A DNA stretch of 64,000 bases from Polynucleobacter sp. 15G-AUS-farblos (GTDB taxonomy: Bacteria > Pseudomonadota > Gammaproteobacteria > Burkholderiales > Burkholderiaceae): NCBI RefSeq assembly GCF_018882445.1, contig NZ_JACVOM010000002.1:62001-126000 (forward strand). Reading direction: 5' to 3'. The position numbers and the translations under genes are program-made. The notes under the pieces are model-generated. The model was not told the DNA's origin, searched no databases, and saw only the letters and a program-made list of their open reading frames with translations. Position 1 is the first letter of the stretch. Each line of letters opens with the position of its first letter. Positions 50,898 through 56,825 of the stretch are shown piece after piece.

Positions 50898-51170
50898 ATG
50901 GCACGCATGGTTCAATGCATCAAGCTCAATAAAGAGGCAGAGGGAATGGATTTCGCACCTCTACCCGGAGAACTAGGCAAAAAGATTTGGAATCAGGTTT
51001 CAAAGGAAGCATGGGCTGCCTGGTTGAAACATCAGACGATGTTGATTAACGAAAATCGTTTGAATATGGCTGATCCGAGGGCCCGCCAATACCTGCTCAA
51101 GCAAGTAGAAAAGTATTTCTTTGAAGGCGGCGCTGATATGGCGCAAGGTTACGTGCCTCCTGCGGAGTAA
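50898..51170 (+). CDS. yggX: Fe(2+)-trafficking/oxidative damage protection protein YggX
   Basis: 90 residues, the usual YggX length, beginning [15 protein letters not shown] with the conserved Cys (C7). [17 protein letters not shown] and [12 protein letters not shown] match the family. YggX lowers iron-dependent oxidative damage, particularly to Fe-S proteins. AAAGG precedes the ATG, and its 15-nt distance to argA indicates a shared transcript. Confidence 0.96.
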
Positions 51171-51243
51171 TTGCTGCGACACAATAATGCTGCACAGCAT
51201 TGATTCGTTAATTGATTAATCAAAAAAATATTTTCATCTACTG

Positions 51244-51272
51244 TTGACACTCTGAAATTGTAGGCATAGGAT
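51244..51272 (+). promoter_or_regulatory. Sigma-70 promoter of the candidate structured RNA
   Basis: A perfect TTGACA (51244-51249), a 17-bp spacer and TAGGAT (51267-51272) point to transcription start near 51279. No open reading frame of note follows before the terminator. Confidence 0.75.
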
Positions 51273-51278
51273 GAAGTT

Positions 51279-51437
51279 GTGGCGCGACAGACTTTGTGTC
51301 CGTCACTTTGGCGCAAGCCACTTGAAATAAACGCATCTGTGCGTTTAAGGACGGCGGAACAATTACTCTTCCGCTTGCCCACGCCATGTCAAGCATGGCA
51401 ATCAAACCCGATGGGGAAACCCCGTCGGGTTTTTTTA
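51279..51437 (+). ncRNA. Candidate structured small RNA, about 158 nt
   Basis: The segment has its own promoter and a strong terminator and fills most of the yggX-rpiA gap. A stem (51300-51308 with 51347-51354, one bulged A) encloses two hairpins: UGGC-GCAA-GCCA with a GNRA tetraloop (51309-51320) and AAACGCA-UCUG-UGCGUUU (51329-51346). Further hairpins are GCGGAA/UUCCGC (51354-51374) and GCCAUG/CAUGGC (51383-51399). The 5' bases 51278-51284 can alternatively pair with 51382-51388, which would disrupt the latter hairpin. I do not recognise it as 6S, tmRNA, SRP or RNase P RNA. Confidence 0.65.
51404..51437 (+). terminator. Rho-independent terminator of the candidate RNA
   Basis: A 13-bp stem (51404-51416 with 51420-51432, one G-U pair) with an AAA loop is followed by a T run to 51436. 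It lies 4 nt from the convergent rpiA stop; the - strand side has only a broken T tract, so it mainly serves the + strand. Confidence 0.9.
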
Positions 51438-51440
51438 TTC

Positions 51441-52151
51441 CTAAAAGGTAATTCGCTCTACCCCTGCTGCATTGCTCACTAAGAGGACATTGGCCTTTTC
51501 CTTTGCGAACAGCCCAACGGTAATCACTCCAGCAATTTGATTGATCAATGATTCGGTCCGTACAGGATCAGTTATCTTCAAACCAGCAACATCTAAGATC
51601 CAGCCGCCATTATCAGTTACAAAAGCTTGGCTAGGAGTTTGACCTAAATCCGCTCGCGTATCTTTTGCAAGGCGTAAGCTCACGACTCCCCCTAGCTTTT
51701 CCAGTTGCCTCATTACTTCCCCTTTTGCAAGCGGAATAATCTCAACAGGCAATGCAAAGTTTCCCAGAACAGCAACTTGCTTTGAAGAGTCGCAAATACA
51801 GATGAATTGCTTGGCCATAGAGGCAATAATTTTTTCACGGGTTAGCGCGCCACCTCCCCCTTTAATCATGTGACCTAAAGAATTGATTTCATCTGCTCCG
51901 TCTACATAAGCTGGAAGACTTGTCACATCATTAGGATCGAGCACTTTAAAGCCATGCTTTAGTAAGCGCTCCGTAGTTGCATTTGAACTCGATACTGTGC
52001 CTGCAAAGTGATCACAATGGGGCGCCAAGGCATCAATAAAGTAATTGGCTGTTGAGCCAGTGCCAACACCTAGGACTTGACCTGCTGGGAGCTTTAAGAC
52101 CTCATCTCTTGCTGCCTCACCCACCATTTGCTTTAATTGATCTTGATTCAT
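51441..52151 (-). CDS. rpiA: Ribose-5-phosphate isomerase A
   Basis: 236 residues from the ATG at 52151 (a GTG one codon earlier is also in frame). RpiA interconverts ribose 5-phosphate and ribulose 5-phosphate in the pentose phosphate pathway. VLGVGTGSTANYFIDAL, the DGADEINSLGHMIKGGGGALTREKI core (in parts, with active-site Asp, Asp and Lys) and GNFALPVEIIP are typical. It is divergent from tal, another pentose phosphate gene, with about 90 nt between them. Confidence 0.97.
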   Translation of the reverse strand: MNQDQLKQMVGEAARDEVLKLPAGQVLGVGTGSTANYFIDALAPHCDHFAGTVSSSNATTERLLKHGFKVLDPNDVTSLPAYVDGADEINSLGHMIKGGGGALTREKIIASMAKQFICICDSSKQVAVLGNFALPVEIIPLAKGEVMRQLEKLGGVVSLRLAKDTRADLGQTPSQAFVTDNGGWILDVAGLKITDPVRTESLINQIAGVITVGLFAKEKANVLLVSNAAGVERITF

Positions 52152-52242
52152 CACCTTGCTCGCTGCCTTTATTGGAATAGAGTCATTAATCCATCTATCA
52201 TATGATAATCACGAGATTACCCCTTAGAACACTGATATCGCC

Positions 52243-56738: not shown

Positions 56739-56825
56739 GCCCAGGTGGCGAAATTGGTAGACGCACCAGCTTCAGGTGCTGGCGATCGTAAGGTTGTGGG
56801 GGTTCGAGTCCCTTCCTGGGCACCA
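56739..56825 (+). tRNA. tRNA-Leu (anticodon CAG)
   Basis: 87 nt including an encoded CCA (56823-56825). The acceptor arms GCCCAGG and CCTGGGC pair perfectly. The anticodon stem CCAGC/GCTGG holds loop TTCAGGT with anticodon CAG at 56773-56775, reading CUG. The long variable arm (about 56783-56800) is that of a class II tRNA, and the T loop GGTTCGAGTCC is normal. Confidence 0.98.

Follow-up and report, generated by a model that had tools for sequence, protein, structure and literature searches.

Comparative evidence for a stand-alone gene behind the HRC-28-1 motif RNA of Polynucleobacter

Introduction

Members of Polynucleobacter are abundant in fresh water, where they live freely, and their genomes are small. 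In Polynucleobacter sp. 15G-AUS-farblos, a stretch of 64,000 nucleotides (contig NZ_JACVOM010000002.1, positions 62,001 to 126,000; hereafter the window) holds, between yggX and rpiA, what an earlier note made from the sequence alone had tentatively read as a lineage-specific, regulatory or catalytic RNA gene. The question raised by this locus is whether the RNA has a gene of its own or belongs to the message of its upstream neighbour, and what such an RNA might do. The portions of the literature returned by our search contained no functional study of any Polynucleobacter sRNA. The neighbours, flanked in turn by argA upstream and a transaldolase gene downstream, are:

50898-51170, + strand: yggX (PRK05408, oxidative damage protection protein), the upstream neighbour; NCBIfam NF003817, 146 bits against a cut-off of 74
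51441-52154, - strand: rpiA, the downstream, convergent neighbour; NCBIfam NF001924, 260.8 bits against a cut-off of 192

Relation to described RNAs

The RNA is already in print. The passages that Brewer et al. (2021; PMC8632094) devote to their HRC-28-1 motif describe 33 examples, mostly from Polynucleobacter, that follow the PRK05408 gene, have rpiA opposite and fold into six stems, of which the final one is an intrinsic terminator; the authors suggest a 3'-UTR element. Genus, flanking genes and their orientation, and six stems with a final terminator all recur here, and on that published description the window RNA is taken as HRC-28-1, a name that a literature search found in this paper alone. 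What is new in comparison with those passages is a promoter shared by all 71 aligned copies, the presence of some copies away from yggX and rpiA, and a wider census (126 of 186 genomes).

No Rfam 15 family reaches its gathering score on the RNA, which, in line with the earlier note, gives no 6S, SRP, tmRNA or RNase P hit; elsewhere in the window only a tRNA at 56739-56822 does so, and 14 diverged loci gave no Rfam match. The 6S RNA of this genome (RF00013) is likewise a stand-alone structured RNA of similar length, but it has a separate gene (C17:320612-320830, 58.7 bits), and RF00013 gives no match on the RNA studied here. The Polynucleobacter-1 motif (RF01718; PMC2864571), which the relevant part of its description also places in freshwater Burkholderiales, differs in that neither the window nor the 14 other loci match it at gathering score. 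Weak Rfam matches, all below gathering and falling mainly over the terminator half, include anti-hemB (RF02837, 22.0 bits against 49.5) and BSR0739 (RF02613, 24.4 bits against 191); all are taken as chance.

A row of five hairpins

The window RNA folds with an energy of -71.1 kcal/mol (z -6.26) and, without its terminator, with a z of -4.39; in each case none of 200 shuffles is as low. Minimum-energy and consensus folds agree in setting the hairpins one after another, and the conserved form predicted from the copies is five successive hairpins plus the terminator, not a branched structure. The five hairpins are:

51279-51306, + strand: H1, with a 7-nt G-N5-G loop closed by A-U
51309-51320, + strand: H2, with a GNRA tetraloop (GCAA here)
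51328-51347, + strand: H3, with a UCUG loop
51349-51380, + strand: H4, a two-part stem with an A/U-rich loop (51360-51368) and a pyrimidine tract on its 3' side
51383-51399, + strand: H5

In a MAFFT alignment of 23 copies, terminator excluded, this structure pairs in 97.7% of cells, 16 of its 38 pairs are changed on both sides, and its covariation score of 0.317 compares with at most 0.113 for slid partners and is reached by none of 500 shuffles. An independent tree of 23 taxa, built only from 957 columns of the flanking ArgA, YggX, RpiA and Tal proteins, implies 40 double canonical, that is compensatory, changes; slid partners give 0-4 of them, and 300 partner shuffles never more than 13. Both tests are free of model-fitting bias, with a structure that is still derived from the same sequences. 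Two-sided changes extend to 28 of 38 pairs in 66 copies and 31 of 38 in 71, in alignments that were model-fitted and whose counts lean towards the structure. The 71 copies are the sequences fetched rather than every match and leave out L153, L154 and G160; two rows were excluded before counting (L007, at a contig end, and L026, a chance match), and L024, whose H2 is a different hairpin, was left out of the 23-copy alignment alone and is present in the two larger sets.

Taken singly, the hairpins show two-sided changes among the 71 copies in 7 of 10 pairs (H1), 8 of 9 (H3) and 5 of 6 (H5), and in all four pairs of the lower and four of five of the upper H4 stem. The weakest pair lies at the base of that upper stem (columns 99-118 of the 71-copy alignment), unpaired in 35 of 70 rows. 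In H2, 3 of 4 pairs are so changed among the 71 copies and none in the 23-sequence alignment; it is dispensable: it is missing in L084, and another hairpin takes its place in L024, L082 and L083. The G-N5-G loop of H1 is found in 70 of 70 distinct rows, and H3 has AUCUNU or AUUCNU in every row.

The strongly structured RNA of the earlier note, with its GNRA-capped and UCUG-capped hairpins, is therefore borne out. The three-way junction in which it had arranged them is not: in 23 sequences, 60.9% of the cells of the closing helix are paired, and 73 of 500 shuffles equal or exceed the covariation of that helix. Nor do two mutually exclusive folds find comparative support in the same 23 sequences: the alternative helix, from the 5' end to about 51382-51388, pairs in 86.2% of cells, has no two-sided change, and is matched in score by 261 of 500 shuffles.

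Promoter, terminator and strand

The predicted transcription unit comprises:

51244-51249, + strand: -35 hexamer, TTGACA
51267-51272, + strand: -10 hexamer, TAGGAT
51404-51436, + strand: intrinsic terminator, a hairpin (51404-51432) and T run
51279-51436, + strand: sRNA transcript of about 158 nt (the HRC-28-1 motif RNA), both ends placed from the promoter and terminator positions

With a spacer of 17 nt, the window promoter matches the consensus at 10 of 12 positions. A single match of this kind is no proof, since shuffles of the 1.3-kb region expect 1.9 promoter-like sites and one was found; the proof lies in its conservation. TTGAC followed by A, G or T is kept in 71 of 71 copies; the -10 is TAGGAT in 64 and a variant in 7, at a constant distance of 6 nt from the first paired G that follows; the spacer is 17 in 55 copies and 16 in the remaining 16. 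The pattern TTGAC-N16/17-TA...T, ending 6 nt ahead of that G, thus holds in every copy, and at least 9 of 12 consensus matches are found in 71/71, against 1.8% of random start points at the same loci, a control drawn from mostly coding DNA. Directly upstream of the -35 the mean A/T content is 0.79, against 0.54 at random places (again mostly coding DNA), which would fit a strong promoter. The stretch 51200-51240, like that upstream of most copies, is A/T-rich and in several species partly palindromic, and is perhaps an UP element or a regulator site.

The terminator is credible on the same grounds, since the count of terminators is near expectation (2 found, 1.4 expected) and the element is conserved, 65 of 71 copies being terminator-like by a crude test. 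The RNA can be assigned to the + strand because G-U cells outnumber A-C cells in the aligned copies, 175 to 19. The promoter at 51244-51272 would then start a transcript near 51279 that ends in the terminator (51404-51436), and a consensus promoter and terminator bounding some 158 nt, as first noticed, stand: from the predicted +1 at 51279 to 51436 is 158 nt. Within 51404-51441 the terminator stops a few bases short of the stop codon of rpiA, whose mRNA may therefore extend antisense into the RNA here.

Copies away from yggX

A copy after same-strand yggX, with convergent rpiA downstream, is the arrangement in 62 of the 71 copies, where the first paired base lies 53-112 nt beyond the aligned yggX end. 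The other nine (L081, L085, L086, L087 and L146-L150) sit elsewhere, in eight genomes, of which G165 holds two at different loci (L085 and L086) and is the only genome with two in the final genus search. Wider views of L086, L087 and L081 (L102, L103 and L104) show an upstream gene divergent from the RNA, a TctC-family, a ChrR-cupin and a LysR gene respectively, and that of L085 (L101) a HemW-like gene on the same strand. At L146-L150, and at two further displaced copies, L153 and L154, which have the same promoter by eye, a diverged RNA stands some 130-155 nt, and at L146-L150 about 130 nt, after a same-strand open frame (genomes G061, G100, G158, G075, G098, G104 and G159); at L147, the one checked, this frame is a PIN-domain gene (PIN_3).

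In the eight genomes with displaced copies the yggX-rpiA gap is 15-101 nt, leaving no room for the RNA there, and at L153 and L154 the yggX-rpiA site is also empty. Among 20 inspected genomes without a match to the first model (R1), the two genes are 9-113 nt apart in 19, and in one (L079) rpiA is not beside yggX; two of the 20, G061 and G100, proved in a later search to hold displaced copies. yggX and rpiA are not adjacent in G032 (L079) and G160 (L157). At L164/L166 yggX matches (G011:C7:7588-7858) as two pieces that overlap but differ in frame, and a TGA is present; the end of yggX, beside an empty RNA site, is either broken or mis-sequenced.

Because the promoter is its own in 71/71 copies and nine copies lie elsewhere, the RNA would be a free-standing sRNA gene and not merely the 3'-UTR of yggX; what the comparison shows is that promoter, strand and fold are conserved and that the gene exists without yggX beside it. 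What had been an orphan motif in print, tentatively classed with 3'-UTR elements, thereby becomes a defined gene with a predicted promoter, start point and fold and a genus-wide distribution, open to deletion and to a search for partners.

Distribution

A 198-base query matched 24 of 36 other genomes of the genus, besides its own; a 26-base match in G037, of another family (L026), was set aside as chance. Successively broader models (R1, R2 and R3, with E limits of 0.001, 0.01 and 0.01) matched 117, 122 and 126 of the 186 genomes in the genus. The 126 include one tentative case, L155 (G174:C59:8804-8924; 34.4 bits in R3), which has H2, H3, H4 and a terminator-like end, with no clear promoter or H1, and is perhaps a decayed or remote relative. 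Outside the genus there were no matches: hits fell in one of 134 genera among 300 genomes (R1), in one of 25 among 398 genomes of the family (R2) and in one of 158 among 399 genomes of the order (R3), which upholds the expectation of a lineage-specific structured RNA gene. When 84,980 species genomes were scanned with an exact pattern, 41 stretches turned up, under the titles Polynucleobacter, "Burkholderiaceae bacterium" or "uncultured beta proteobacterium". Plasmids and phages gave no matches and viral contigs none; searches over 40 genomes used stricter filters, at which weak matches are lost.

As every wider model added matches, the 60 genomes without one may hold diverged copies. A promoter-RNA-terminator cassette that is nearly always single (two copies in one genome) and occupies different chromosomal sites could be a core regulatory RNA of Polynucleobacter that is independent of its neighbours and perhaps persists, undetectably diverged, in part of those 60, a reading we regard as rather doubtful.

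What the RNA may do

A regulatory role for the RNA is plausible. The account we favour, with a confidence a little short of even, is that HRC-28-1 is a stand-alone sRNA gene in which an own sigma-70 promoter yields a 158-nt, five-hairpin regulatory RNA that would act in trans. Trans action is the most likely mode because the RNA is free, has a fixed promoter and is kept while its neighbours change; and since the gene need not adjoin them, yggX and rpiA are unlikely to be essential targets. How it might act is a more speculative matter. It is conceivable, if on the unlikely side, that H4, through its pyrimidine-rich 3' side, which the A/U-rich loop leaves partly open, pairs with Shine-Dalgarno regions rich in purines on distant mRNAs, with the help of Hfq in most species. 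Five or more consecutive pyrimidines stand on that side of H4 in 70 of 71 copies, and the genome encodes hfq (PF17209, 103.6 bits); a ProQ/FinO-domain protein (PF04352) was not found in the one genome searched, the E. coli control being positive. An argument from strand identity in the upper H4 stem, which has purines on the left, pyrimidines on the right and no flips between them, was dropped, many other pairs never flipping either.

Against a simple Hfq-seed model are the varying loops and poor U tails, which make a role in protein binding a close rival. A T run of at least 5 follows the RNA in 63 of 71 copies and is shorter in 8, including L081, L085, L086 and L087, and these 8 have a poor Hfq tail; nor is a clearly conserved unpaired seed seen, for the loops of H1 and H4 and the J2/3 linker differ from species to species, and only the pyrimidine tract of H4 is kept. 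A stand-alone structured RNA might instead sequester or scaffold a protein, in the manner of 6S or CsrB, and not pair with mRNAs at all. Few of its bases are single-stranded, paired positions are better conserved than unpaired ones (mean 0.84 against 0.71), and the best-kept unpaired bases lie in structured loops (G-N5-G of H1, GNRA of H2 and UCU of H3) while the candidate seeds vary. The RNA has, however, no repeated known protein-binding motif, GGA is not a loop motif in it, and no Rfam family matches it; this role, too, we consider rather unlikely.

That the RNA is a structured 3'-UTR element of yggX mRNA, as Brewer et al. propose in the passages cited, agrees with the majority of copies that follow same-strand yggX within 53-112 nt and with the window, where the interval from yggX to the RNA yielded no terminator, so that read-through from yggX may also produce it. 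Set against the promoter common to all copies and the nine displaced ones, three of them behind a gene that points away, this explanation is improbable.

A riboswitch, attenuator or ribozyme, which so compact and elaborate a fold might suggest, is very improbable, because no same-strand gene follows, just as had been noted at the outset (rpiA converges on the RNA in the window, as it does in 62 of 71 copies), the alternative fold is not kept, and no self-cleaving Rfam family matches, nothing else speaking for the catalytic RNA once proposed. Scarcely credible is a small peptide gene or dual-function RNA: the early statement that the RNA contains no ORF is loosely worded, a 67-codon GTG frame being open in the window (51279-51482), but no ORF is common to the 71 copies and substitutions track the helices. 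The longest closed ORF of the core varies in length from copy to copy, 15 aa being commonest among listed values of 9-37, and its start position varies too.
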